DNA of 64,000 nucleotides from Limnephilus marmoratus (Eukaryota > Arthropoda > Insecta > Trichoptera > Limnephilidae), in NCBI GenBank assembly GCA_917880885.1, contig OU862916.1, forward strand, positions 47,900,831 to 47,964,830, given 5' to 3'. Below the pieces are notes generated by a model. It was not told the origin of the DNA and ran no database searches. It saw only the letters and a list, made by a program, of their open reading frames with translations. The translations under genes and the position numbers were made by a program. This document shows, one piece after another, positions 10,915 through 64,000 of the stretch; within the stretch, counting starts at the first letter, position 1, and every line of letters starts with the position of its first letter.

Positions 10915-12112
10915 TTAGGTGATGATACAGCGTAATTCGTAAGGGAGGTTATTATAGTTTTTTATGGCTTGGAAAATATAATGATGTTGCATTTGAGTTG
11001 TTTTAAAATTAGGTGTAATAAATTGGTTTCCATTTCTCATTAGTTTGTAAAACTCTTGATATTCTTTGTTATTTTTTTCTTTACACATTTTTATAATAGA
11101 AGCTTGTTTGAATATGTCATCGACATTTGGTACTGGAAACAATTTGAAAAGTGATTCTGTTGAGAAGGTAGATTTTTTTTTTAATATTACTTTAATGATG
11201 ATTCTTTGTGAAACTTTTACTGAGTTTAGATTGTTTTCGTAAGATCCTCCCCACCCTATAATTCCGTAGATAAGTAAAGAATGAACAAGAGCATAGTACA
11301 CGTTTTTGATAATTTTTACATTTAAAATATTTCTTAACCTAACAAATATATATATACATTTCCTTATTCTCTTCACTAACTCTGAAATGTGACTATTCCA
11401 CTTCAGGTTTTGATCAATGATTACACCTAGATATTTAACTTCGGAAGAAGAGTTAATGACGGTACAAATAGGATTATGTTGTTTACAGAGTACATGATCA
11501 CATTTTTCGTCTCGGATTACAATATTAACTGTATGATCAGGTATTTTCTGTAAGGAAAATAAGACATAATATGTTGTTTTTTTAGCATTAAGTGTGAGTA
11601 AGTTATTATCAAACCACGATTTTAAGATATTAATATCTTCATTTGCCAATTTATTGACTATTTCCCATGTTTGACCTTTTATTAACAATACAGTGTCATC
11701 AGCATAAGAGATTAATTCACCTTTAATTTCCTGTTGGAAAATGTCGTTCACATATATTAGAAATAATAATGGTCCGAGGACGGTACCTTGAGGGATGCCA
11801 AATTTACTTGTGAGAGATGAACTAAATGATTGATTTAATTTTACTACTTGAGGTCTCTCTGTTAGGTAGCTTACTATCCATTTGAGGGCTATGCGGTCAA
11901 TGCCGTTTTCTTTTAATTTAATAGCAAGTTTTTCATGGGAAATGCTGTCAAATGCTTTCTTTAAGTCGATGAAAATTCCTAAACATTTATTTGATTTGTC
12001 CAGGTTACTCTGAATACTAGATGAAATTTTAGCGATAGCGTCTTGTGTGCTTTTTCCCTCTGTGAATCCAAATTGATTTTTATTGATTGTTGAATTTTTT
12101 TTTAATGAATGC
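10915..12112 (-). pseudogene. LINE reverse transcriptase, downstream frame
   Basis: The minus-strand frame is open from the homopolymer at about 12100 to the stop at 10915. In order it shows NQFGFTEGKSTQDAI, FIDLKKAFDSIS (motif A with a catalytic Asp), GIPQGTVLGPLLFLIYVND (motif B), YADDTVLL (motif C, YADD box), and the thumb-side ELVKRIRKCIYIFVRLRN. It ends with the LINE C-terminal segment LLIYGIIGWGG...SLFKLFP. The enzyme would copy LINE RNA at a nicked genomic target. All catalytic residues are intact here. The frame begins without its own start because it is separated from 12080-13234 by a one-base difference in an A9 run. It lies directly upstream of the tail, so this is the element's 3' coding end. 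Confidence 0.88.
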
Positions 12113-13234
12113 AGTTAATCTTTTTTTAGCAATTTTTTCAAAAATTTTCGACATATTAGATAATAGTGAAATGGGTCTATAATTAGAAACGTCCTCCGGA
12201 CTACCGGATTTAAATACTGGCGTGATTATTGCTTTTTTATACGTGTTCGGGAAAACTCCTGTCTTGAAGCTATTATTGATTATATGAGAGATTGGTGTAG
12301 AAATAAATTTTTTAATGTTTTTTAGTATTTTTACGGAAAGGCCGTCAAATCCCGGAGCAGAACCACTCCGCATTTTTGATATAGTTTGTGCAATTTCAGA
12401 GGGATTGGTTGGTTCGAAAAGTTCTATTTTATTTTCTGTGTTCGGAGTTTTTTCAAATTTTATTTTATTTTCTTTTGCAGAAATTTTTTCAGCTAGATTC
12501 TTTCCTACGTTTGCGAAGAAATCATTGAATGCATTTGCTCCTTTTTCAGGTTCCTCAAGACAATTTATTATATTATTGTTTTGCATTATACTCTTTATGG
12601 TATTGTTTTTTGTTTTCTGTTTATTTTCTAAGATTTCATTTATTATTGACCAAACTCGCTTACTGTCGTGTCCAGAGTCATCAAGTTTATTTTTATAATA
12701 TTTTTCTTTAGTGTTTTTTATAAGAGAAGCTAATTTATTTTTGTATTCTTTAAAATGATTACTTAAATTTATGTCTAATGGTTTTTTTTTAGTTTCTTTG
12801 TAGAGCCATTCTTTATGTCTAATAGACACAACTAGTCCATGTGTTATCCACGGTTTGATTTGACGAAATTTTGCTGAGTTTCCTTTATGAATAATTTTTT
12901 TTGAATCATTTATATAATTAGTTAATATATTTTCAAACAGTTTACAGCACTCGTTGACGTCATCATATCGGAGTATATCTAACCATAATTCAGAGGAAAT
13001 TTTATTTTTTAGAGATTCGATATTAATGACAGTTATTTCTTTATTATTATTAGCAGTTTGTCTGTTATGTTGATTTGTCGTCTGAGGTGAATTGTAATGT
13101 AGCAAAGTCATGTAATGGTCGGTAATTGAAGTTTTTATAATACCAGAGTTTATATTATTATTATCCTTAATGTTAGTGAAAATGTGATCAATGCACGATG
13201 GACGTTGCCCATTGACGTTTCTAGTGTAATATGC
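12080..13234 (-). pseudogene. LINE endonuclease end and N-terminal part of reverse transcriptase
   Basis: The open frame starts mid-protein, with SCIDHIFTNI and ITDHYMTLLHYN, the last conserved blocks of an APE-type endonuclease. A linker of about 200 residues follows (PWITHGLVVSIRHKEWLY; FNDFFANVGKNLAEK). The start of the reverse transcriptase comes next, with KMRSGSAPGFDGLSVKIL, AIITPVFKSGSPEDVSNYRP and ISLLSNMSKIFEKI. It hits a stop just after an A9 run at about 12096-12104, where the next frame takes over. Apart from that slip and the missing 5' part, the sequence is clean. This suggests a recent, dead-on-arrival insertion. An ATG exists at 13111, but the reading frame is open further upstream, so it is not the true start. 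Confidence 0.88.
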
Positions 13235-18136: not shown

Positions 18137-18522
18137 ATTTTTTTTTACAGTGAATACCGCACAAGAATCTCAACTGCTCCCGTCTGGAGCCAGTGAGACT
18201 ATGGCATCCCCAATTGGGGTATGTTGTGAGGCTGAAGGTAGTGGGGAGGGGAAGGAGGTGGGGAAGAGGAAGGTTTGGAAAGTACCTGGCTATTCAGATC
18301 TGGTCACCAAACACGGCTAAAGCCGTTTTTAAGCAACGTTTCAATTCTGAATGGTGGTCTTACACCAGGGCGACACTGATAGTATCTTCCACTCTGGAAC
18401 ATGCCGCAAATATATTATACATTATTTTAAATGAATTAATTGTGAAATAACACAAATTAATCAAATAAAATTTATTTGCGCATGCCGGGTTCGAACCCGC
18501 GACCTCCGAATTGTGAGTCAAA
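18137..18522 (-). mobile_element. SINE-B, head truncated within the tRNA part
   Basis: The poly(A) tail is on the left (T-run 18137-18146). Next comes ACCGCACAAGAATCTCAACT, then the body, then the B box as GGGTTCGAACCC (18486-18497). The head stops at TGTGAGTCAAAA, before the A box. The copy is nearly identical to 45692-46106. Confidence 0.9.
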
Positions 18523-20325: not shown

Positions 20326-20472
20326 CACTTCAAAGTCTTGTCGCTGCCATTAATTTATTTTTATCTCTGTTTGCAAAAATGTTTATAATTTCTGATTAAT
20401 TTGCTAAAAATATTTCTGTTTTTGCAAATAGAGATCAAAATTAATTAATGACGGTGACAAGATTTTGAAGTG
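20326..20472. repeat. Imperfect inverted repeat, ~57-bp arms
   Basis: The left arm CACTTCAAAGTCTTGTCG...TTTGCAAAAA pairs with the right arm TTTTTGCAAATAG...GACAAGATTTTGAAGTG at about 80% identity, with a loop of about 35 bases. It could be a foldback MITE or a hairpin-forming transcript. Confidence 0.65.
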
Positions 20473-22508: not shown

Positions 22509-22706
22509 TTGAAGAAGAAGATAACAATAATAAGCGAAACGAAAATATGAAATGGAACAAGACACAGAAAAACAGAAAAAAGACAATGGTCGCAACTGGG
22601 ACTCAAGAGTTCTGGTTTCGAGTCCCAGTTGCGACCATTGTTTTTTTTCTGTGTCTTGTTCTCTTTCATATTTTCGTTTAGATTATTATTGTTATCTTCT
22701 TCTTCA
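22509..22706. repeat. Large palindrome centred on tRNA T-arm-like sequence
   Basis: Left arm 22509-22604 and right arm 22620-22706 are near-perfect reverse complements with a 15-base loop. The centre contains a T-arm-like CTGGTTTCGAGTCCCAG. The arms (TTTCTGTGTCTTGTTC, ATATTTTCGTTTAG) resemble a distant version of the SINE-C body. Confidence 0.85.
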
Positions 22707-23865: not shown

Positions 23866-24052
23866 GACACCTTGGCGCAGTGGTTAACGCATTTGCCCGG
23901 AAAGCGAAAGGTTCTGGGTTCGAGTCCCAGAGGTGCTAACATCTTTTTCTGATTTATCTGTTTCCAGATTTTCGATTGAGTTTCGCTAATATTGTCCTCA
24001 TTTAATTAAACTTTACAATTTGAGGTTTTACTCATAAAGTTAAATAAAAAAA
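23866..24052 (+). mobile_element. SINE-C copy 1 with tRNA-like head
   Basis: Head 23866-23936: acceptor GACACC pairs with the 3' AGGTG, an A box lies in TGGCGCAGTGGTTAACGC, the anticodon-like arm is TTTGC-CCGGAAA-GCGAA, and the T arm is CTGGGTTCGAGTCCCAG. The loop would read GGA, but the base before it is C rather than U, so a working tRNA is unlikely. The body follows (TTTTTCTGATTTATCTG, CAGATTTTCGATTGAG) and ends in an A/T-rich tail. Confidence 0.8.
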
Positions 24053-24567: not shown

Positions 24568-24850
24568 TTTTATTTTTTATTTTAACATTATGAGTAAAAC
24601 CTCAAATTGTAATATTTAAATAAATGAAGACAATATAAGCGAAACTCAATCGAAAATCTGGAAACAGAAAAATCAGAAAAACATATTGACACCTCTGGGA
24701 CAGAGGTCCCAGACTGGTCCCAGAGGTGTCAATATGTTTTTCTGATTTTTCTGTTTTCAGATTTTCGATTCAGTTTCGCTTATATTGTCTTCATTTATTT
24801 AAATATTACAATTTGAGGTTTTACTCATAAAGTTAAAATAAAAAATAAAA
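24568..24850. repeat. Large palindrome made of two SINE-C bodies head to head
   Basis: The arms 24568-24701 and 24717-24850 are reverse complements with very few mismatches, and the loop is 15 bases. Each arm is a SINE-C body, from the last part of the tRNA head (GTCCCAGAGGTGTC) to the tail. The 5' three quarters of both tRNA heads are missing at the centre. Confidence 0.9.
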
Positions 24851-25071: not shown

Positions 25072-25212
25072 GACACCGTGGCGCAGTGGTTAGCGCGTTT
25101 GCCCGGAAAGTCCTGGGTTCGTGTCCCAGAGGTGTCAATATGTTTTTCTGATTTTTCTGTTTCCAGATTTTCGATTGAGTTTCGCTTATATTGTCTTCAT
25201 TTATTTCAATAA
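25072..25212 (+). mobile_element. SINE-C copy 2
   Basis: Head GACACCGTGGCGCAGTGG with T arm CTGGGTTCGTGTCCCAG and 3' acceptor GGTGTC (25072-25136). The anticodon arm carries a deletion of about 6 bases. Its body is the same as copy 1 but the tail is shorter. Confidence 0.8.
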
Positions 25213-37389: not shown

Positions 37390-38190
37390 TTTTTATTTTA
37401 TTTTATTTTTATTTTTTATTAGTAATAGAAGGTACATAAATTACAAATAATTTTTATACAGTAATTAATTACATAGTAGAATATTTGATGTACCCCCATA
37501 ATTAAGCAAGGCTTGTGTGTATGGGGGGGTGTTATTGTATTGCTTTTTTTTATATCATTCAGTTTAAGTTTTTAGTATAATTTTTGAGGTGAGTTTTAAA
37601 ATTTTTTATATTGGTATTCATGTTTCTAATTTTTTCTGGTAATGAATTAAAAAAATTTGCTCCGAGATATTTATGACTCAATTGTCCAATTTTTTTTTTT
37701 ACATTTTGGAGTGGGAAGTATTGATGTTTGTCTAAGACTTCTGTTATTTTTAAAGGGTGCAACTTGATTTTTAATATTATCATTATAAATTTGTAATGTT
37801 GCATGATAAAAGTATAATGCACTTAATTTTCTGACCTTAAATTGTTTGAATAAAAGTTCTGACGAATATGAGTAGGGTTTTTTAAAAATTGTTTTTATTA
37901 TTAGTTTTTGTGATATGTAAATTGTTTGTGTTTGATTTTTATATGTACCGCCCCATCCTATAATGCCGTATTGTATAATTGATTGACAGAAAGCGAAGTA
38001 TGTGGTTCTAAGTAATTTTTCGTTTAAAATATCTCTTAAACATCTAAATATATGTATATGTTAGTTTCCTTATTCTGTTGTTCAGAATATTAATGTGTGG
38101 AGACCATTTTAAACGCTGGTCTATTGTTATGCCCAGGTACTTAATATCAGTTTTGCTTTCTATTTTTGAACATGATATATTAAATGATTC
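37390..38190 (-). pseudogene. LINE 3' end (same family as 52205-52760)
   Basis: On the minus strand: DIKYLGITIDQRLKW near 38130, YGIIGWGGTY near 37950, then TEVLDKHQYFPL, GQLSHKYLGANFFNSLPEK, IRNMNTNIKNFKTHLKNYTK and a stop at 37559. This is the C-terminus of a CR1/Jockey-like LINE protein. A 3' UTR (ATGTACCCCCATAATTAAGC in + orientation) runs to a T-rich tail at 37385-37420. Frameshifts break the upstream part, and the reverse transcriptase core is missing. The YGIIGWGG motif links it to the LINE at 10630-13236. Confidence 0.8.
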
Positions 38191-45004: not shown

Positions 45005-45133
45005 TTTTTCAAAAGAAGCAAACACATTGTGACTTGACATTTTAAATAAATAAAAAGAAAATACTTTGTTATTTTTTTCGTCTATTATTTATTTAAAATG
45101 TCAAGTCACAATGTGATTGCTTCTTTTGAAAAA
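45005..45133. repeat. Inverted repeat, ~46-bp arms
   Basis: TTTTTCAAAAGAAGCAAACA...ACATTTTAAATAAATA pairs with TATTTATTTAAAATGT...TGCTTCTTTTGAAAAA with one clear mismatch. TTGTTATTTTTTTCGTCT also occurs twice in direct orientation (44961, 45067). Confidence 0.85.
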
Positions 45134-45691: not shown

Positions 45692-46106
45692 TTTTTTTTT
45701 TTACAGCGAATACCGCACTAGAATCTCAACTGCTCCCGTCTGGAGCCAGTGAGACTATGGCATCCCCAATTGGGGTATGTTGTGAGGCTGAATGTAGTGG
45801 GGAGGGGAAGGAGGTGGGGAAGAGGAAGGTTGGGAAGTACCTGGCTATTCAGATCTGGTCACTAAACACGGCTAAAGCCATTTTCAAGCAACGTTTCAAT
45901 TCTGAATTGTGGTCTTACACCAGGGCGATACTAATAGTATCTTCCACTCTGGAACATGCCGCAAATATACTATATATTATTTTAAATGAATTAATTGTGA
46001 AATAACACAAATTTATTAAATAAAATTTATTTGCGCATGCCGGGTTCGAACCCGCGACCTCCGGATTGTGAGTCAAAAGTCTTACCCACTGGACTACGGA
46101 GGCCGT
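45692..46106 (-). mobile_element. SINE-B, full-length tRNA-derived SINE
   Basis: On the minus strand it starts with GCCTCCGTAGTCCAGTGGG (A box TAGTCCAGTGG), an anticodon-like loop CTCACAA, and B box GGGTTCGAACCC. The body of about 330 bp follows (CAGATCTG, CCAATTGGGGATGCCATAG), ending GTGCGGTATTCGCTGT plus a poly(A) of about 18 (T-run on + at 45692-45709). This is the reference copy for about 15 others in the window. Confidence 0.93.
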
Positions 46107-46158
46107 CAACACCCCTTTTTTTAAAAGACTTAAAAGTCTTTTAAAAAAAGGGGTGTTG
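46107..46158. repeat. Perfect palindrome, 25-bp arms, 2-base loop
   Basis: CAACACCCCTTTTTTTAAAA-GACTT mirrored exactly. It starts at the base after the SINE-B head ends. Confidence 0.95.
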
Positions 46159-46780
46159 AAATGTCACTTTGTTGAGTTGTCATGAAACGACATTTTTTAT
46201 GCCATCCACTGAAAATCAAATTTATCTATTAGGTAGGTATAATTTAAAATTCAATCCGAAAGTTTTAGGTAAATTTAATCAACCAATAATAATTTATTAA
46301 GTGCTTCCTAACAAATGACATGATTGGATGACTTTAATAAACTAAGTTGGCTTTTAAGAAACTTTTCCAATTATATTTTAATAAAGACTTCTTTTATTTG
46401 CATCGAAGGATTTCTCATTAATTCCTTTAATTTATTAATCAATTGTCATTAAATTTTATCTGGTTTATAGGGTTGAATAATTGGATGAATTTCGTGCTTA
46501 AAGCAGTAATTTGTTTATTTATTAAACAAACCTCAAAACGAAAAGCTTTCAATAAACCTTCTCGTAAAAGGGTTGAAAACCAACAATAACTCGATAAGGC
46601 TATTTGATAGGGTCGAAAATACGAGTATTATCTTTAAAAAAGCCTTGTGTTGCCACAGTGAGCTAAAACACCAATATAAAATAACAAGTATAATAAGTTA
46701 CACCTTGAAACACGACTAAATTACATTTTTGAACAAAAAACAAATTTAAATAAACACAAAATATCACTAATAGACCAGTT
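46159..46780. other. Unassigned AT-rich sequence
   Basis: No recognised feature. Confidence 0.4.
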
Positions 46781-51812: not shown

Positions 51813-52200
51813 CCCGGAGAGCAGTGGCTATTCGAAGTGCTATCCCAAGCCTACCGACCAGATTCAATTAGCAGCCAGTAAAGGCAGGTCATGTGCTCAG
51901 AAGGTTATGTGTTCTCCTAAAAAACAGTTTGTGACAAAGACCTTATTATTACTACGAAGTACACCCACAAAATAAATAGTATTTGACAGTAATTAATATA
52001 AATATTACAATATTCATATACTATGCGCTACATTTAACTACAGATATCATGACAATATATATACTATGCAATACGAAAAGTGATTTTTTTAAATTTTGAT
52101 CAAATTACCTCCTTGCTTACTCCAAGAATTTTATTTTTATTTTTTTATTTATTTATTAAATAATCAGTTTACAAAGTATGATAATTTTGAATACATGAAA
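51813..52200. other. Unassigned sequence
   Basis: No recognised feature. Confidence 0.4.
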
Positions 52201-52204
52201 ATAA

Positions 52205-52757
52205 AAATAAAAATCAAACACAAACAATTTACATATCACAAAAACTAATAATAAAAACAATTTAAAAAAAACCCTACTCATATTCGTCAAAACTTTTATT
52301 CAAACAATTTAAGGTCAGAAAATTAAGTGAAATTAAGTGAAATTAAGAAAATTATACTTTTATCATGCAACATTACAAATTTATAAAGATAATATTAAAA
52401 ATCAAGTTGCACCTTTTAAAAATAACAGAAGTCTTAGACAAACATCAATACTTCCCACTCCAAAATGTAAAAAAAATTTGGACAATTGAGTCATAAATAT
52501 CTCGGAGCAAAATTTTTTAATTCATTACCAGAAAAAATTAGAAACATGAACACCAATATAAAAATTTTTAAAACTCACCTCAAAAATTATACTGAAAACT
52601 TAAACTGAATGATATAAAAAAGCAATACAATAACACCCCCCCATACACACAAGCCTTGCTTAATTATGGGGGTACATCAAATATTCTACTATGTAATTAA
52701 TTACTGTATAAAAATTATTTGTAATTTATGTACCTTCTATTATTAAAAAAAAAAAAA
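52205..52757 (+). pseudogene. LINE 3' end (same family as 37390-38190)
   Basis: The + strand matches the minus strand of 37390-37960 closely: ACACAAACAATTTACATATC, then coding for KITEVLDKHQYFP, YLGAKFFNSLPEKIRNMNT and NIKIFKTHLKNYTENLN-stop near 52608. The shared 3' UTR (CATACACACAAGCCTTGCTT, GGGGGTACATCAAATATTC) ends in poly(A) at 52744-52758. It is 5'-truncated and has a frame break at the poly(A)-like stretch near 52470. A short duplication, AAATTAAGTG, lies at 52320-52340. Confidence 0.82.
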
Positions 52758-52759
52758 AA

Positions 52760-53655
52760 TGATAAATTACATAACTAGTTTTCACTGATTTTTTTTTTCA
52801 TTTTATCATGTTTCTCTTCGGTAGAAGCAGACGCTTGTCTATTTTTAATAAACTTTAGTAGACACTTCCGAGTGCCGTACAACGACGTGTTTTATAAAAT
52901 GGTTATTTTCAGAACTCTAAACTTAACCTCTCGGCGACACTTCAAGTATTTAGAAGTTTGTAGGTACTTGCATTTCCTCGCTTCAGAATAAGGGTCGTAG
53001 TTTTGGAGTACAAACATTATTGATTAATAGATATAATATTCCCCAAAGCGTTGTTGTTTATTTTCCCCCACTTTAAGAAAAAGTCGACCGAACTTTTAAG
53101 GAGCTGTCGCGAACAGAGTCGAAATTCTTTCGCGAATTAATCCTACTTTTGAAAATTATTAGTTTGAACCTTTGTAGGTATTAGCCATTTGGTTTTTGAA
53201 ATCATTTTGCTTTGATAAATAATATATGCATCTGCTATCAGTTTGTGGTGCATTGTTCTACTTGCTCACGCATTATATTTCAGATGATTTTATCAGCAAT
53301 TAAAACTTAAGGTCTTCAAACAAATTCATGAATTAAAACAAACTGCCTGAGGTAAGTGTGCGCTTTATGATAAATATTATAATAGTCGCATCCCGACAAT
53401 GACAACAAAAGCTTTGCAACGGTTATTTGACAAATTGACTTGATATTACGCGAGTTGACATAATTAATGTTAAATATTACCTCAATTGGCGACGACTGAA
53501 TATTTTTCTATTCTAACCTTTTATCAATGTCTTTATCAATCTTCATATCTTTTACAATCGCCTTCACAAAATTCTCTTCCTTGAATTCACTATTTGTACA
53601 AATAAAAACCGGTATCCACCGTACGCAGTGTTTTTCTATTATTTCTTTCAGAGGT
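52760..53655. other. Unassigned AT-rich sequence
   Basis: No recognised feature. Confidence 0.4.
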
Positions 53656-53659
53656 TTAA

Positions 53660-54620
53660 GGGGTTACATGGGTTTCGTAGCCAAGAAAAAAGTATTTATT
53701 TGAGTGGAATAACGTAATATTGCGTATGCAGTTTAAAAAACTTAATTTATGTAAGTATGTATGTAAAAATTCCTGATATCGGACTATTGGATACATAGCT
53801 GATTAGTCCAACCTACGCTCTGTAGATATTAGTTCAACCTACGCTCTGTAGATATTAGTCAACACTCTGAAGTTCGTAGATATTAGTTCAACATATGAGC
53901 TGTAGATATTCGTCCGACATACAGGCTGTAGATATTAGTAACTGGAATCTTCCGGAGACCCCTAAAAAAGTGTCCTCGCGGTAGGCAGGATACACACGAT
54001 GGCTTCATCTGAAATTATTATTTTTTTCTGTTAGTACATAAGTTAGATAGTAGATAAGCTGTCCTTGAACGAAAGATTTCTCAAAAAATTTAAATTTGAA
54101 TTTTTGGCAGAGTTTTATGCAAAATAATTCCATTTTTGGAACAATTTACAGTGTGTAAGCCTGGTAAAATTATTTGTAATCGAAAAAAAAATTCTTCGGT
54201 AATTACTGGTCAACGCTATTTTGAAGAAATATGCCAAATTTCAATGACAACCGACTTCAAAAATGGTGTTTCGAGATAAACGCGATTGAAGTTTCAAGTA
54301 GGAATAATACGGAGAATTTTTTTATAACTCTCATAGAATCACTTCCAGCACCGTATGACAAAGAACCTGCTGCAGCTGCGCTGTCCAGGGCATATTTTTG
54401 TTCCTGTCTGAGACGAATTCTTGCCTGTGTCCCGGTATACTTCGATAAACTCGTACCCACGTCCTTTCCTGCCGGTCTTTCCCAACGGGGCGGGGATTCC
54501 CAAAGGCTTTCTCTCCTAGAATTTTATTCCGATTGACTTGAAACTTTAGGAGAATATTCTAGAGATATTGTACTAATAGATAAAGGAAAAAAATCAAAAT
54601 TTTCGGACCCATGTAACCCC
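53660..54620. mobile_element. DNA transposon with TAA target duplication, Harbinger-like
   Basis: Ends GGGGTTACATGGGT and ACCCATGTAACCCC, flanked by TAA (53657-53659, 54621-54623). It is 961 bp. An open frame at 54231-54536 (+) has no recognisable transposase motif, so the element is probably non-autonomous. Confidence 0.7.
53801..53942. repeat. 26-bp minisatellite inside the TAA-flanked element
   Basis: Five to six units of TAGTTCAACCTACGCTCTG, TAGATAT with a 26-base period (one unit is 28). Confidence 0.9.
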
Positions 54621-54623
54621 TAA

Positions 54624-55148
54624 ACGAAAGCCTTACCAAATTTTATGATAGGGTTTTTGTGGAGAGTATTTTGCTTTTGAATTTAAGAACAACAAAAAAT
54701 ATTGTTGGACTCCTTTTGAACCACCCATAAATATCCTTGGGAAATATTTAATTGATTTCTACGAAAAGAATAATGCAGGTAGGCATACTTCAAGAGACTT
54801 TGATGGAATTCTCGGAGCAATATTTCAAAGTAATTACAGAACTGAATGTATATTTTTTCGTTTGATTCATTTGAAAACATCTTCAAGAAATGCGATGTGT
54901 ATTGTTCTAAAAATGGGTCACGAAATAAATATTTTTCTCATAAAGCCGAGGGATATTGCAATATTGTTATTTATCAATAAATCAAAGGACCTATAGAAAT
55001 CGAAAATCTCTTTCATTTTTCAGTGTCATTACGAATTCTATAAAAATCTTACTTATTTTCCACCATTTATTTTGTGTGTGGGTCTTGTAAATTTACGAAA
55101 AACTTTTTTTTTCTGACGACTTATACTCCTTGACAGAACTGTAAGTTT
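54624..55148. other. Unassigned AT-rich sequence
   Basis: No recognised feature. Confidence 0.4.
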
Positions 55149-55149
55149 C

Positions 55150-55288
55150 TTTTTGTTGTTTGTTTTTGGGGTGTTATGCCGTGTTACGCTACCTCCTCCT
55201 TTAGCCAACATTTCGGACAGCGTTACAGTGTCCATCATCAGGGCAGATGTGTGACACGGCATAACACCCCAAAAACAAACAACAAAAA
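55150..55288. repeat. Perfect 35-bp inverted repeat around a hammerhead-like motif
   Basis: Arms 55150-55184 and 55254-55288 (ACACGGCATAACACCCC...) are exact complements. Read on minus, the 69-base centre has CTGATGA, a closable GGACACTGTAACGCTGTCC stem, and GAAATG. It is related to 30795-30995. Confidence 0.85.
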
Positions 55289-57415
55289 TACTTTTGGCCG
55301 TGAAAATCTAAAATCATATCTGTAAGTTTCTTGGCTATTAACAGCCTTACTAAAAAACCCAGTGAAAATTTTATTCAATTGACAAACGGCCGCAGATGTG
55401 AAAACATTACTAATTAAAAAATTGTTCATGGGAAAAATTCACGTGGTTTACACGGCCTGAGGGGGTAGTTTATCTCTGTTTTATTAATGAGGTCGGAACG
55501 AAATCCAAAGTATTTTGAATGTTCCATATATTTCTTATTTTTGAAGGTGTCGTAAAAACAAATACCATTTATGAAAACTAGATAAAATTACCTTTTAGAT
55601 TTGTGTATTTGAAATATACTTTAGTTTTCAAAAACTGCCGTATTTTAAGATTCAAACTCGGAAAAAAATTGAAAAAAATTTCCTCCCACAACATTTTTGA
55701 CCAAAATGTAGAGAAATTTAAATAAAATCAAAATTTAAAAAATACAGTCCTTTTATGTAATAAATTTGGAAGGAAACTATCACCTCACTTTTTCGTCGTG
55801 TATACAATAAAAAAAGAATAAAAAAATTCAAAGTTTTTTTTAATGCCAAAAAATAACTTAGAAATAATACCGAAATTTAAAACAGATTTCTTGCATCTCT
55901 AAAGACGTTAATTTTTTTGTTACGTTTACGAACACATGTATTAGATTTTAATATTATAAAAAATTATCACTTTTAAGAAATTCTCTTAAAATAAAGATCT
56001 TAAAATGAAAATTTTATCTTTTAAGTAACCTATAAAATATATTTTGACAGTTCAACTTTGAAAGTACGGCGTTTGTACAATAACTCGATTAAACTGATGT
56101 AAACCACACAAATAACATGGTAAATATATCAATTATGTGAACAAAAGGGTAAATTCGTCACTACAATAGAAATTATTAAGCAAAATCACAAACTTTTCGA
56201 TATCCCGCCATAAAACACACCGAGCTGTTTTGTCATCGCGGGCTGTCGCGGGCCGAAGAACTAATGCATAGGCGCGCCAATAATGCCCCTTGCGGAGAAA
56301 AATTAAAACAACATTGTTTCCTAGTAAATTAAAACCATATACAATGTTGTCAAATCTTCAATGCGTTTTAACAGCGTGACCACGTAAGAAACGTTATTGG
56401 TAATAAAACGTGTTTTATTGTATACGAGATTTATTTATGTTGCAATAACACAGTTAATCGGTCGCGCTGTGGTTTTTTTTAGTAAGGCTGCTAGTGTTTA
56501 GTGTTTTGCATGTATGTTAGTGTTTTTTATGTAATGCTTCTAACTCGAATTTATAAATGTTATCCTCGATCCAGGCTATTAGTCCTAGTGCGGTAAATTT
56601 TTAATGTTAAAAAAAAAAACGATAACATAATGTACGGTGTTCGATAACATAATGTTGGGATTGGTTAGGTATTGCATTCGCAGACTTGGTGGGTAGCATA
56701 TGTCAAAATCCTGAAATTATCCCTACCTAATCTTTCCATACTAAATGTCATCATGAAAATATGCAATTGTGGCAAGAAAAAGTACTCAACTTTGGAGAGG
56801 TGACAGTGTAAATTAACTTCTCAGATAGGGCGCATGTATTATAACCTCTTTCTATAAGAATATTACGATTTATAAATTTAAGTATAACGTTGTGAAGTGT
56901 ATACAACAACCTGGAGATCAGTGAGGCCCATCTGCAACGGTGAGTGCTGTTTTCCTTTATCCAATCTGGGCTTATCTAATTTTCCAGATGCTCAGATCTG
57001 ACCATCGACAGACACTATCCATCAGGTTTGCGAGAGTATGCATATCGTCCCGTATAACTTGGCGAGCAACGTAGTTTCGGGACTGATCCTTCAGGGTGTT
57101 GCATAGAGCTTTGCTCTGCAGCACTTAACCGCCAACTTACAGTGGAGTCGCAGTTTCGCAACACCATACGGTGAGAAATTATAAATAAATAGTAAAGTTC
57201 ATCAACCACCACCGATTGATTGCTCTGGATCCACTGGTCTCCGATAGACAACCGGCATTGAAAAGAAGTCTTAATCTCTCTGGTTTCACGTAAAAACGAA
57301 ACGAATTAATAACAAGAATAGACTGTTCGAACATTTCCGAAAGATTTTATAGAACTTTTAGAATATTCAAAATACAAATGCATGTACTACGCATGTTGCG
57401 CATTTTTCGCTAATT
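55289..57415. other. Long unassigned stretch
   Basis: AT-rich. A GC-richer block at 56195-56290 and one at 56990-57250 have no recognised motif. Confidence 0.4.
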
Positions 57416-57417
57416 GT

Positions 57418-57850
57418 AACGGACGTATCAGCGTCGCCACAAGACTATAAAAAAGTACCGGGTTTTTAGTGCACGAACAGGATGGTGGTGATGGAACAAA
57501 TAATAATACTGACCTCCCGTGCACCCAGTGCCTGATGCGTGAAGGACACTGGATGTGCTTAATCCTCTGCCTGATCCTGGCGCCTGGCGGTTGCCAAAGT
57601 AGGGCCGGCTCTTCTGGAGGAGTGTTGGCACCAGGACTGAAGACAGGCAGAGGTCGGCGGGGGAGGCAGCTGAGTGATAATAAATTTCCCAGTAGGAATA
57701 ATAACACGAGTTGACTGTAGAGAAGAACTAACTTTATTTAGAAAATACGCGCCCTTTTATACCCTAATCTGGGCAAAAAGGTGATCACATGGTACATTTA
57801 TGGGGTGGGGGGTTGGACCTCGCCCGTAAGTATAAATACGCCGACTTTCT
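57418..57850 (-). mobile_element. LTR-like promoter region
   Basis: Minus strand: GGTATAAAAGGGCGCG (TATA box, ~57760) is followed by AATAAAGTTAG (~57735). A GC-rich stretch then ends CGTCCGTTACA at 57418, the kind of TG...CA end seen in Ty3/Gypsy LTRs. No target duplication or primer site was found, so limits are tentative. Confidence 0.4.
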
Positions 57851-58105
57851 TGTCGCACTTCATTTTGCTTGTGTCGCTCAAGAAAGTGGTCGATTAAAAT
57901 CATTATTTAATAATAATTCTATAGGTTATAACATAGTTTTTTATAAAGTATTTCTTAATTCTAACATGTATGTACGGGTATTCTTTACCCGTAGATTTTT
58001 AGTTTAATGAATTTAGGAACAATTTTGGAAATGTTTACCATTTGTTGGTAGGTATTTGAGTTTAATTTAAGTTTGCAAAGTGATGTGAAGAAGTTAGTAT
58101 TTTCC

Positions 58106-58947
58106 CCAGGTTCCTCGTAAGACTGGCTACCGAAACCGGTTTGTCTCGTCGTCTTACGAGGTTCCTGGATTTTTAAAATGGAAAAAGACTGTTTTTTGAT
58201 CGGAATTTTTCTAAGTACAAAATTTGTGCGCAAAAGCATATAGCGTTGGCAGTTTAAGAGTCACAAGGTTGATTTATGGCTCTATGGATGCCCCGTAGGA
58301 CTCTGCACTGAAATGTCTTAGTTTCAGTGTCCTACGGGGTGTTTAAACGAAGTTATATTAAAATATGGTGTATTTTTGACTAATATGACGGCCCTTAATA
58401 GGGACACCCAAATTGGTGTTTTGGCTTTGTAGCCGGAAAAATAGCCCTGAAGGCGATGAAATAATAAGTTTAGGATGTCTCCTGGTGGCAACTTGGTAAC
58501 CAAGTTTTTACTTGTGTCACCAGGGCATCTGTGTATTAAGAAAAAGACATTTAAAATTGAAAAAATGTGTTTTGAAAAAGATCGTTGCTGGCGGCACGGT
58601 ATTATTGAACTTCGTGGCCAGGACGAAAAAAGGCCCTACAAAGGGCCATAATTAAAATAGAGAGCAGCCCGCTTGGCGGAGCTGCCGCCTCCTGCAGAGC
58701 CATAACAGCAGAGCGGCAAGGGAGGGAAGGCAAATGGCCCTTTTTAGGGCCTTAGCCTGAGGCTGGAAATTAAGGCCCTCAAAGGGGTCTTAATTAAAAT
58801 AAAAAAGGAGGCTAGTCAGCCTGGTTGCCTTTGGAGGCGTAAATAAGCATAAATAAAGTATTAATTGTTAAAATTATTAAAATTATAGAATTCTAGAATG
58901 TCTCCCGGTGCAAACTTGGCACACAAGCTTTATTTGGTTGCACCGGG
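58106..58947. other. Array of GC-rich hairpins in AT-rich linkers, non-coding
   Basis: Four long hairpins: 58106-58168 (CCAGG-TT-CCTCGTAAGAC and complement), 58291-58339 (CCCCGTAGGAC, inner ACTGAAA stem), 58481-58524 (CCTGGTG, inner AACTTGGT stem) and 58904-58947 (CCCGGTGCAA). Between 58390 and 58835 many shorter stems occur: 58392, 58404, 58423, 58444, 58632-58647 (GGCCCT-ACAA-AGGGCC), 58664-58685, 58736-58751 and 58770-58792. No open frame of note crosses it. The family is unknown to me. Confidence 0.75.
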
Positions 58948-59043
58948 GCATTGTACATAAGCAAAACATATAAGATTAAAAATTAAGAAATGAGGGAGAG
59001 CAACACGTCCGTTACACTAATAATATAAAGTTTTTTGGCTAAA

Positions 59044-59714
59044 ATGCAGATCCTGCCAATGTCTGGGAATTTAAGAAAAATGCACTTTTTAGATGAGAAA
59101 AGTGTGGAGAAGATGAATAAAAAATAAATTAAGGCGCGCTCGGCAAAATTGAGGGAGATACAACCGTTCAAAGTATTTAAAATTTCACTTCGCGAACTAA
59201 TATTATGACAGTCCGTTCGCCATTTTTTCACTGTTTATGTTGGTATCCCAGACCTAATACAAACCTAGATACGATTGTAGCCGACTTCGTGGGGTAAAGG
59301 ATAAGGCGCGTAATTATTAAAAACAGAATTAATAGTAAGCCAGAATCACAAACCATGTTACACAAACCTGGCGTTGCCGCTAAACTACTTGAAAACTGGG
59401 ATGTTTTTCTTGCCTTGACGCGAGTAGGCGTTATAAAGGGGCACTTTCTTTCGTATCACAAACCATGTTTAGCTGTCTAGCTGTTGTTTGCATCAGGTCA
59501 GGGATACCAACATAATAGTGACAATTGATAAAATGGCGGGCGGGCGGGCTGTCAATAACAGTTCGCGAAGTGAAATTTTAAATACTTTGAACGGTTGTAT
59601 CTCCCTCAATTTTGCCGAGCGCGCCTTAATTTATTTTTTATTCATCTTGTCCACACTTTTCTCATCTAAAAAGTGTCTTTTTATTAAATTCCCAGACATT
59701 GGCAGGATCTGCAT
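59044..59714. repeat. Inverted repeat, ~215-bp arms, 230-base spacer
   Basis: Arms 59044-59259 and 59490-59714 are about 88-90% complementary (ATGCAGATCCTGCCAATGTC with GACATTGGCAGGATCTGCAT). The spacer has TCACAAACCATGTT twice (59345, 59456). Probably a foldback-type element; no transposase. Confidence 0.85.
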
Positions 59715-59734
59715 TCCTCCCAGTTTTTTTATAT

Positions 59735-60122
59735 GAATATCGTACAAGAGCCCTTAACTGCTGTTAGACTGTGAGACCATGTTAGACTATGGCATCCCCA
59801 ATCGGGGTAGGTTGTGAGGCTGAAGATAGAGGCTGGGGAGGAGAAGGAGATGGAAAAGAGGAAGGTGGGAAGTGCCTGGCTATTCAGATCTGGTCACCAA
59901 ACACGGCTGAAGCCATTTCAAGCAACGTTTCAATTCTGAATAAGGCGATATTGAGAATATCTTTCACTCTGGAACGTGCCGAAAATATACTAAATATTAT
60001 TTTTAATTAATTGGTTGTGAAATATCACAAATTAATCAAATGAAATTTATTTACGCACATCAGGTTCGAACCTGCGACCTTCGGATTGTGAGTCAAGAGT
60101 CTTACCTCGGGATCACGGAGGC
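59735..60122 (-). mobile_element. SINE-B, nearly full-length
   Basis: The tRNA head is at the right end (minus GCCTCCGTGATCCCGAGGTA; B box as CAGGTTCGAACCTGCG), and the body is at the left. The 3' tail has lost its long poly(A). The head's A box is partly changed. Confidence 0.88.
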
Positions 60123-60440
60123 GTCTGAGGCAGTATTGGCAAATATCTGTTTCGCAGTGACTTCCAAGGATATCACCGAAGAAAGTCTATACGCACCAAT
60201 ACACCCAATCCTTAGTAGATATTCTTCGAATCCACTCTAATATCGAAACCTACTTTTGTTTTATCTAGTTTTTTGTGTTCATATCCGATGATGATGAAAT
60301 GAAATTTTTACGGAAAAAGTTTGACGGTACTGTTTTATTTGTGTCACGTTAACCCAGAAGTGCAAAATCTTGCAATCAATGATTCTCCATTAAAAAAATC
60401 TGATGAGGTGACTTTGAGGTTGCCAATAGAAAAATTGTCA
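60123..60440. other. Unassigned sequence
   Basis: No recognised feature. Confidence 0.4.
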
Positions 60441-60444
60441 AACA

Positions 60445-61595
60445 TGTGGCGGTTACTTAACCCGCCCCGTGAAATTTACCGCTGCGCCACTGGGCCTCCA
60501 CAGAATTCGCTGGAAGCCCACACAACGAACTACCTACCTACGGCCGATACTGCATCTACCTACAGCGGAACGATAATTCCGCCACCTGCGCGAAAGAGCT
60601 AGAACGTCTGGCTGTACCAAACAAGTGCCCGCAGAAAGTTCGAGCGATTTCTCACCTTTGCGTGAGTTCATCGCATTACCTACCGCGAGACTAATTACTT
60701 GCCACGAGTATATAAGCCGCGCTCGCTTGCTCGGAGCCAGTCAGTACTTACTTTCCGTTCATCGGCCGAGCAAACACATCGAGCAGTGCAGTAACTCTTA
60801 TCGTGCCTGCGCCCGGCACGGGCCTCGCGCAGTCAACAGTGAACACCATTTATCCAGCGTGACCCAGGAACATTCCAGCACCTTCGAGGCACTTCTCCAA
60901 CTCGATATGAGATGGCAATCAACATCCTGCAACGAGCAGCAACAACAACCGGCAACGCGCCATCATCCAGCATCCTGCAACGAGCAGCAACCAGCACCTG
61001 GCAACGCGCCAGCATCCTCATCGCCTCTCAAGGTTCCTTCCTTATGAAACAATACATGATTATTACTTCAATGGCGTCAGCCAGAGATGAAAAACCTACT
61101 GCGGAGTGACATAGACCGTCCTTTGGGATGGTCCGATGCTCTGTAGGGAACCCGCTTGCACAGCGCGGGTGTAAACTGTGCGCCCTAAAGTTTAAGTTTA
61201 GACTTACGGAATTCAATACTTCGTTTGTGTGAAAGCACTATGAAACAATACATGATTATTACTTCCTGCGTCACGTGTGTGCTCCGACTCAAAGGACACA
61301 TAGCCGCCATATCCCGTCAACACGACGTCGATCGACCGCCTGGACCAAGGTCACGTCTACACCGCCATGGTGTAGGGCAACACGCCGGCTTCCTGAAGAC
61401 CTGTGATCTTCACCGCCGTAGTATCCTGACCTTCATCTTCACATCATCGCGCAGCAGCATCACTACTGTCACTCCGCTCCCGCTCCGCATCGACCTCCGC
61501 TACGTAGCCACAATAAAGACTGACTCACACATCGACTGACGCCTTTTATTTCTCGTCCCGGCTCTACCGATACGGACCGCTCCCTCAAACATAAT
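60445..61595 (+). mobile_element. LTR-like promoter region, possibly a solo LTR
   Basis: GC-rich. AGTATATAAGCCGCGC (TATA box at ~60709) is followed by GGAGCCAGTCAGTACTT (initiator-like), and AATAAAGACTGACTC lies at ~61511. This order fits U3-R-U5 on the + strand. Exact ends and target duplication are unresolved. The 140-residue open frame at 60625-61047 is Gln/Ser/Ala-rich from repeats and is not a convincing protein. Confidence 0.45.
60917..61018. repeat. ~48-bp tandem duplication
   Basis: CATCCTGCAACGAGCAGCAA with CGGCAACGCGCCATCAT, then CATCCTGCAACGAGCAGCAA with TGGCAACGCGCCAGCAT. In addition, ATGAAACAATACATGATTAT occurs at about 61044 and 61240. Confidence 0.85.
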
Positions 61596-61599
61596 AATT

Positions 61600-62230
61600 A
61601 TTCCGTCGACAAATTCACAGGGAATAGCATCCAGATGTAGGTAAACCGGTTACAAACAGATGCTTTGCAGGTAGAGGTATGGTTTGTGATGAACCGTAAT
61701 CAGCTTAGTCCGACTTTATTTTAGATTCACGTATTAAGTAAGAAAAACTTTGAAAAGCGATTTGTTTACGCGTTCAATATTTTATTTTGTATTATCAGTA
61801 AAAAATTGAATTTATTTAATTTGCTCATTGTTTATTTTTTAATAAAGAGTGCCTACCGAGAAAATGTATAATTTATTTGTTGGCACGTTCTCATTTTAAA
61901 ATTCTCCAATATCTTTTGCCTTTAGGCAAACACTTTTTTCATTTCTACGAACCCAAATGTAATAAACTTTTTATGTACCTACATAAATGTTTTGGTAGCA
62001 TAATTTTTAAGCTCTGTAAAACAAAATGTTGGAAATTGGTATTTCCCGTTAGAGTTCGAATTTTAAATGACCAGTCCAAGAATTTCTCTTCTTGTAATAA
62101 CAAACTTTTAGTTGGTGTATGATAGATCTACTTCGCGATCACATTTTTGGGTTCTAAAAATACCGCCGTTTACACCAAAGTTCACACGTGTGTGAAAGTA
62201 GATAAACTAACTAACTACTAATAATTACGC
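61600..62230. other. Unassigned AT-rich sequence
   Basis: An open frame at 61877-62122 (+) has no recognisable motif. Confidence 0.4.
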
Positions 62231-62234
62231 CGTT

Positions 62235-62420
62235 GCAAGGATGACGGACCGCCAAACAACTCGGTCTTAGCACACACTCTTTGAATTCACATTCACGTCT
62301 CATACACTATCATATTCTACTCATACTCTTCTATTCTCTGACTCTTGACATGGCCCGACACAAGTATCTCATTTTCTTAATCTTGCCATGTCTTCTTCGG
62401 GCGTTTCCGACTTCTTCTAC
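62235..62420 (-). pseudogene. LINE tail fragment related to 14385-14580
   Basis: The minus strand shares CGGTCCGTC, GGCCATGTCAAGAGTCAGAG and AGAAGACATGGCAAG with the 14165-14590 fragment. Too decayed to translate. Confidence 0.6.
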
Positions 62421-62461
62421 ATTCTATATATTCTTACGAACTTCTATATATTCTTATTTTT

Positions 62462-62505
62462 TTTTACATTTTCTCCATATAGGAGGCCCTGAGAAAAATT
62501 ATTAG
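62462..62505 (-). repeat. Family A tail fragment
   Basis: TTACATTTTCTCCATATAGG, AGGCCCTGAGAAAAATTATT. Confidence 0.6.
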
Positions 62506-62549
62506 ATAAGTGTGTAGGTAAGTGCAGCTATGTATTGTATTAACGCTCA

Positions 62550-62790
62550 ACCAATACTCTTAGTACCGCCGTGGTGTAAGACCACCATTTAAAATTGAAA
62601 CGTTGCTTGAAATGAAATGACCAGACCTGAATAGCCAGATACTTCCCTACCTTGCTCTTTTCCATCTCCTTCCCTTCACCAATACCTTCAGCTTCACGAC
62701 ATACCCCAATTGGGGATGCAATAGACTTACTGGCTCCGGACGGGAGCAGCTGGGACTCTTGTGAATTATTCATATAAAAAAGAGGGAAAA
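62550..62790 (+). mobile_element. SINE-B, headless copy
   Basis: GTGGTGTAAGACCACCATTT, GAATAGCCAGATACTTCCC, CCCCAATTGGGGATGCAATA, GGCTCCGGACGGGAGCAGCT and a degraded tail. Confidence 0.82.
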
Positions 62791-63835
62791 TCAACGCCCG
62801 GGCAAGTCTCACCTTCGTGGTCTTCGAAATGCCTCTGTCACTCCACATTTTTTACATTTTACCCATGGCGTCTTTATACATACAATTAGATGATTTAATT
62901 ATTCACGCATAATATTTTTACAAATCCACATTTTAAAAATAAAACATCAATCTGACTCTTAAATTTTTATTGCCAGGCAAATATATCAAAAAGCACCCAA
63001 AAAGCTTTGTCATCTCCAGTCAACTGTACCTATAAAATCCTTGGAGAAAAACAAAATCAATCGGAGGACCTGATCAAATTGAATTTATTATTCTCGATGT
63101 CCAATAAGAAAAAGGCCGGAGGGTATTTAGAAACCTTTTGCAAATTAAAAAGACAACTTAGCCAATCTAATCTACCACATAATAAAATAAAGAACCTTTT
63201 TCTTTATAAGCTATTGAATAAAGGTTGAACCGAACCTTATAGGCAACCCAACACACTTGCTAAAGCAAGTGAACGATATGATACTATATAGCCTCAGGGT
63301 GATGCCGAGAATTATAGTCCCACATTTTTAAATGCATATATACGAAAATAATATTGGAATAATATGGTGGGTCTGAAATTTCACGACTGCTCATGGTTAG
63401 GATACTCGTGCGGTTAAAGTACAAACTTTGTGTTCAAATCTCGGCCCCGACCATAAATAGTACAAGCAAAGGGTGATACGGCATCGAAGCTTGCTGTTTG
63501 TCTCCGATCTGCAACCAAAATGCACAGACTATCAAAATTAAAAGGTTATAAGGTTATAAGGTAGAAATAAAGGCGGGGGTCGCTAAACGTTATTGAAAAT
63601 TCTAGTAGAATAATTTTAGAAGGACGTTGTGACGATGGCGATGATGACGACTTTTATGCGCGCGGTTTTATATTAGAAATAGGTAACCCATTTCCTTCGT
63701 TTTTATTATCTATGTTATTGGAGTGTTATTCTGTAAGTGTACGTGAAAATCAATGTACATATGTATTTAAATAAATAATATTTAATTTAATTGGAAAAAC
63801 CAATTTTTATAATTTCTGAGGGTTATTATTATTAG
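62791..63835. other. Unassigned sequence
   Basis: An open frame at 63007-63228 (+) is lysine/leucine-rich and unmatched. 63395-63450 has a weak tRNA-like pattern (TGGTTAGGATACTCG, then TGTTCAAATCTC). AGGTTATAAGGTTATAAGG is a small repeat at 63542. Confidence 0.4.
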
Positions 63836-63839
63836 AATT

Positions 63840-64000
63840 TGGGAGGCGGGTATGGGTACCAACGCCCCGGAAATCGGATACATACAACTTTGGATAACCG
63901 ACATCTCTGCAACCCCATGTGGTTCGCTACGATCTGCATGACGGTTCAATATGTTCTTAGATCCTACCGGCTGCGCCAGTTTGTAGTAACTCCGGGGTTT
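63840..64000 (+). repeat. Family A head, runs off right edge
   Basis: GGGAGGCGGGTATGGGTACC, GCCCCGG, TGGATAACCGACATCTCTGC and GTGGTTCGCTACG match the head part of other copies. Confidence 0.75.

Follow-up and report, generated by a model that had tools for sequence, protein, structure and literature searches.

Organisation of the hairpin array

The window, meaning the whole 64-kb stretch of DNA that was analysed, contains a noncoding stretch of about 0.85-1.1 kb packed with unusually stable hairpins. Its parts are described below on the + strand, with z scores relative to shuffled sequence and bit scores from three covariance models built from the array itself: R1 (H1/H2), R2 (short hairpins) and R3 (H3/H4). 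The long hairpin H1 (58106..58168, +) has an outer stem of 5+11 bp, an asymmetric loop and an inner mini-hairpin (z -6.4 on the + strand, -6.1 on the - strand). A small hairpin, AGAGTCA/TGGCTCT (58257..58283, +; segment z -2.5 on + and -3.5 on -), precedes H2 (58285..58345, +), the partner of H1, in which an outer stem of 17 bp with four G-U pairs encloses an inner hairpin (z -7.5 on +, -5.2 on -) and the outer helix of H1 is kept. Three small hairpins then stand in a row (58392..58437, +; z -2.5), the first of them, S1, being of the GGCCCT type (R2 match of 31.3 bits). H3 (58473..58530, +) has an outer stem of 6+10 bp with a 2-nt bulge and an inner 6-bp hairpin (z -3.9 on +, -2.9 on -), and is followed by the hairpin TCGTTGCTGG.../CCAGGACGA (58582..58626, +; segment z -3.0).

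The next domain, which is branched and GC-rich (58630..58753, +; z -4.0), is closed by a 20-nt inverted repeat with 95% complementary arms, S2 and S3 (R2 scores of 41.9 and 30.2 bits), each of which can alternatively form a GGCCCT-N4-AGGGCC hairpin. S4, the hairpin AATTAAGGCCCT/GGGGTCTTAATT (58768..58795, +; segment z -3.9; R2 score 39.1 bits), repeats, together with the A/T tail that follows it, S2 and its tail in direct orientation (30 nt, 83%). Two small hairpins at 58809..58838 (+) are no more stable than shuffles on the + strand (z -0.4; -2.2 on -). The last long hairpin, H4 (58897..58953, +; z -3.4 on +, -2.8 on -), is a diverged duplicate of H3.

Two further hairpins lie to the left of 58106: H0, a possible first long hairpin of 54 nt with a perfect 9-bp arm (57839..57892, +; segment z -2.5 on +), which is unmatched by the models of H1-H4 (R1, R3), and the short hairpin TACGGGTA/TACCCGTA (57973..57993, +; segment z -3.7). 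With these the cluster would possibly begin about 270 bp further left. A start at 57839 is tentative, because 57838-58100 taken as a whole has no clear margin of stability over shuffles (z -1.6 on +, -2.8 on -). A TATA-like box at 57831-57838 was considered as a promoter and set aside; it means little, since 151 such matches occur across the window. On the - strand at 57690-57770, TATAAAAGGGCGCG (its TATA match coming from a pattern scan) followed by AATAAAG recalls, by eye, the promoter region of an LTR.

The right end of the array is at about 58953, and 90 bp further right lies an inverted-repeat (MITE-like) element (59043-59715) with arms of 162 nt that are 96% complementary. Next to it, 59724-60122 is a dispersed repeat, probably of a SINE-like family, with relatives at 18140, 45696, 41821, 49527, 62587 and other sites in the window.

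Stop-to-stop frames touching the block reach at most 103 aa. Neither the 103-aa frame nor a second of 91 aa brought up a relative that scored in the protein database (two candidates and one, respectively).

Folding stability

The hairpin-rich character of the block is real and statistically solid. The minimum free energy of 58100-58955 on the + strand is -314.5 kcal/mol, compared with a mean of -240.1 (sd 8.6) in 20 dinucleotide shuffles (z -8.68), and the - strand gives z -6.52; none of the 20 shuffles reaches the observed value on either strand. The same holds for 200 shuffles (z -9.8 on +, -7.7 on -; 0/200 on either strand), so that the dense block of stem-loops reported at the outset is confirmed by the fold test against dinucleotide-shuffled controls that had been suggested with it. 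Stability is not confined to the long hairpins, as the residual 602 nt without H1-H4 give z -6.2 on + and -4.3 on - (100 shuffles). When 13 segments were folded singly, two of them to the left of 58106, z was at or below -2.4 in 11 on the + strand and at or below -2.2 in 10 on the - strand; the segments that failed on + were 58180-58224 (z -0.6) and 58804-58846 (z -0.4).

In a scan for local hairpins (span at most 90, energy at most -10), the array core has 8 on the + strand, compared with 7.6 (sd 1.0) in 100 shuffles, and is therefore without excess in number, whereas their summed energy is in excess on both strands (z -5.3 on +, -4.7 on -; 0/100 shuffles reach it). Stability, not count, sets the block apart from shuffled sequence.

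Among 148 tiles of 856 nt on the + strand, those starting at 57781, 58209 and 57353 take ranks 1, 3 and 4, and array tiles are absent from the eight best on the - strand. Of the best 25 GC-adjusted 120-nt sub-windows by energy, the array holds 8 on + and 2 on -, the five strongest on + being palindromes outside the array at about 24661, 22561, 45001, 46081 and 20341. A strand-neutral stem score in which A/T stems are also counted gives 377 for the array segment, a high value but not a unique one; the 52 other segments have a mean of 301 (sd 44) and a maximum of 381.

The choice of strand is less clear, and the + strand is only slightly favoured. G-U pairs number 31 in the + fold, compared with 9 in the - fold. 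This bias was rejected as proof of strand, since the difference of 22 is matched by shuffles (21.3, sd 5.4; 100 of 200 reach it). The energy difference of the + fold over the - fold is -55.5, as against -41.1 (sd 8.1) in shuffles, 8 of 200 of which reach it. A strand-neutral count over stems gives 29 G-U to 16 A-C in the array and 1549 to 1513 elsewhere, which we do not take as evidence because of the G and T content.

Duplication within the array and retention of outer helices

The initial annotation described four long hairpins of a single design. This is true only loosely: by sequence they fall into two diverged pairs, H1/H2 and H3/H4. H1 and H2 have in common an 11-bp core (CCUCGUAAGAC/GUCUUACGAGG and CCCCGUAGGAC/GUCCUACGGGG), while H3 and H4 together with an A/T-rich tail give a 93-nt blastn match (73%, E 1e-6). 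The tails of H1 and H3 are themselves alike (24 nt, 83%). A GGCCCU stem is common to four short hairpins, at 58390, 58632, 58736 and 58774, two of which carry the tail AATTAAAATA (30 nt, 83%). The recurrence of GGCCCU-N4-AGGGCC hairpins and of A/T tails makes local duplication likely, and the simplest reading of the sequence is that the array probably grew by local duplication of modules, each a hairpin plus an A/T tail.

Between the duplicates, the outer helices have been retained. The 16 pairs of the H1/H2 outer helix show three two-sided changes, two one-sided changes, none broken and two gapped in H2, and the 16 pairs of the H3/H4 outer helix show three two-sided changes, none broken and one gapped in H4. 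Both helices together thus contain, in 32 pairs, six two-sided and two one-sided changes, none broken and three with a gap in one sequence. Of the inner-helix pairs, 6 of 7 are broken in H1/H2 and 2 of 6 in H3/H4. When partner columns were slid by 1-3 positions, at most one pair was changed on both sides. Column shuffles equalled the observed retention in 74 of 500 cases for H1/H2 and 59 of 500 for H3/H4. These controls are weak because each pair comprises only two sequences and takes its reference structure from one of them (H1 or H3).

Such changes need not reflect selection on an RNA. In PMC8794818, template switching is proposed to produce perfect stems in a single event, together with multi-base compensatory changes, without selection. 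The array could accordingly be non-functional debris formed at the DNA level, in which replication template switches and local duplications made and remade palindromes. We regard this as a serious rival, somewhat less probable than the reading favoured below, because the window contains other long palindromes. Perfect inverted repeats (arm at least 8, at least 3 G/C, loop 3-45) number 43 in the window, compared with 10-21 in six first-order Markov simulations, and arms of at least 12 number 7, compared with none simulated; all seven lie outside the array. The good folding seen on both strands also agrees with such an origin. Palindromes are generally abundant in this stretch: long near-perfect ones occur at 22583-22641, 24662-24756, 45023-45115 and 46106-46159, with perfect arms of 22, 40, 31 and 25 nt respectively, and at 20340-20460, and several of them exceed every array hairpin in strength. 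What argues against debris is that several different short hairpins with bulged, imperfect stems occur here, and that the outer helices are retained while the inner ones diverge. Clustering adds a further point, 7 of the 43 inverted repeats falling within 1.1 kb (57838-58955) and 5 within 58106-58953, in a test that is biased since the place was picked for its hairpins.

Searches for relatives

The array is without relatives in the Rfam, phage, plasmid, viral and prokaryote collections searched. No Rfam family reaches its gathering cut-off in the block; the 17 sub-threshold matches within 57700-59050 score at best 19.1 bits against a cut-off of 55. Across the window, the only Rfam matches at gathering score are two to tRNA, at 23866-23938 (also called by ARAGORN as tRNA-Ser with a GGA anticodon) and 25072-25137, both possibly tRNA-derived repeats. 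Among the matches listed from the open-licence literature, there was no nuclear insect hairpin array.

The array apparently sits in a nuclear, arthropod-like genome. An organelle location is unlikely, since the window carries a reverse transcriptase, an inverted-repeat element and dispersed repeats within its 64 kb, as in nuclear DNA. The reverse transcriptase lies on the - strand at 10915-13234, where two overlapping frames, one with an RVT_1 domain (E 5e-32), presumably represent a non-LTR element. The 10915-12114 sequence has 1734 relatives, the best 56% identical; among the 120 listed, the named ones are from beetles and a moth (35-40% identity). A further repeat of about 550 bp occurs at 52207-52760 and 37405-37942 in opposite orientation (93% identical).

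Composition speaks mildly for an outside source, in which foreign or organellar DNA, or part of an RNA-virus untranslated region, became established in the nuclear genome: the dinucleotide distance of the array is 0.140, compared with a mean of 0.086 (sd 0.027), with 4% of 225 overlapping tiles (array tiles included) as far. This mildly outlying signature may merely mirror the hairpins, however. Searches with blastn of phage and plasmid collections returned only short pieces (E 0.03-0.4), four degenerate patterns had no match in viral or prokaryote contigs, and the Rfam result above is equally negative. Within these collections nothing supports a bacterial, phage or plasmid fragment, and we consider foreign origin distinctly improbable.

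A mobile hairpin family resembling mitochondrial GC clusters had also been suggested, and the repeated modules of hairpin plus A/T tail would suit one residing in nuclear DNA. The best blastn match of the array to the remainder of the window has, however, an E value of only 0.29, so there is no convincing copy elsewhere in the 64 kb. The three covariance models recover their own members strongly. Outside the array, R1 matches at 22585 (20.8 bits, E 3e-4), 46112 (20.4 bits) and 24685 (15.9 bits), R3 at 22576 (15.4 bits, E 0.004) and R2 at no better than 12.4 bits (E 1.1). The R1 and R3 sites are long palindromes in which, as judged by eye, pairing and not sequence is matched, and the remaining match is weak. 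No target-site duplication was recognised by eye around the array. A mobile family is therefore unsupported inside the window and very improbable.

Two more specific identities found no support. The block lacks the single long terminal inverted repeat that flanks a foldback or MITE element: no inverted repeat of at least 24 nt encloses it in 52000-64000; among the 25 longest of 77 inverted-repeat pairs, one of 21 nt (81%) spans it, at 58063 and 59185, and the right arm of that pair falls inside the neighbouring inverted-repeat element. Insect-type telomerase RNA carries a template such as CTAACCTAA, and none of the 14 template matches in the window (at most one mismatch) lies within 57700-59050.

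Animal pri-miRNAs have a stem of about 33-35 bp that includes a paired basal segment, and commonly, though not universally, a CNNC motif downstream of the 3' arm. The array might be a small-RNA precursor, either a young microRNA cluster or a hairpin-RNA locus, processed by Drosha and Dicer, and among mechanisms pri-miRNA processing had the strongest initial appeal: the four hairpins of 57-63 nt form two paralogous pairs, and H1 and H2 each acquire a basal stem once 25 nt of flanking sequence on either side are included in the fold. A young, fast-evolving miRNA cluster is described in flies (PMC8581666). Pairing of the flanks does not exceed chance in five of five hairpins, with 123-258 of 300 shuffled flanks doing as well, and none of the five has a CNNC in the 30 nt downstream. 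With no Rfam miRNA family at cut-off either, a pri-miRNA cluster is unsupported beyond chance, and we consider a small-RNA precursor improbable.

A putative structured RNA

We favour the reading that the array is a noncoding locus specific to its lineage, structured and probably transcribed, to which we give a probability of roughly 40%. This reading fits because the block is more stable than shuffled sequence, its outer helices are kept between duplicates and it has no long frames. Those three observations are compatible with the structured RNA suggested initially; its transcription we infer. Local duplication of modules, each a hairpin with its A/T tail, would have built up the locus, which would be transcribed now or have been so recently, the + strand being somewhat likelier, to yield a putative structured RNA of about 1 kb. 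Selection may act on the duplex stems, for example as putative docking sites of double-stranded-RNA-binding proteins, and leave inner loops and linkers to drift. A bolder version sees in the array a new class of structured RNA gene, carried in the nuclear genome of an arthropod lineage, that evolves by tandem duplication of hairpin modules with the outer duplexes alone under selection and offers a duplex-binding protein a multivalent scaffold. It is speculative and distinctly improbable. To ascribe a function to the array would go beyond these observations, as would calling it a system of a new kind.

If transcribed and conserved, the array would be a worked example of a large structured RNA arising by duplication of hairpin modules, and its duplicates could separate selection from template switching as the source of compensatory change. 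Otherwise it serves as a warning against taking strong folding statistics, on their own, as evidence enough for an RNA gene.

Comparison with known systems

S2 and S3 resemble the histone 3' stem-loop (Rfam RF00032), which has a 6-bp stem and a 4-nt loop, but their scores of 17.8 and 16.6 bits fall short of the family's gathering score of 34. Like the array, young insect microRNA clusters (such as mir-972C; PMC8581666) contain several hairpins in a short cluster, those of the array lying in paralogous pairs; the array differs in its chance-level flank pairing, its lack of CNNC and the extra mini-hairpins in its loops. Mitochondrial GC clusters and repetitive hairpin-forming elements of yeast, sponges and fungi are GC-rich intergenic palindromes that have also multiplied as larger motifs, as in the array (PMC2800124, PMC4478555). 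Those elements are mitochondrial and genome-wide, whereas the array forms a single cluster, apparently nuclear, and 64 kb hold no convincing second copy of it. The hairpins attributed to template switching in PMC8794818 share with the array near-perfect stems and paired changes. Template switching concerns origin, not function, and the array differs in bringing many imperfect hairpins together.
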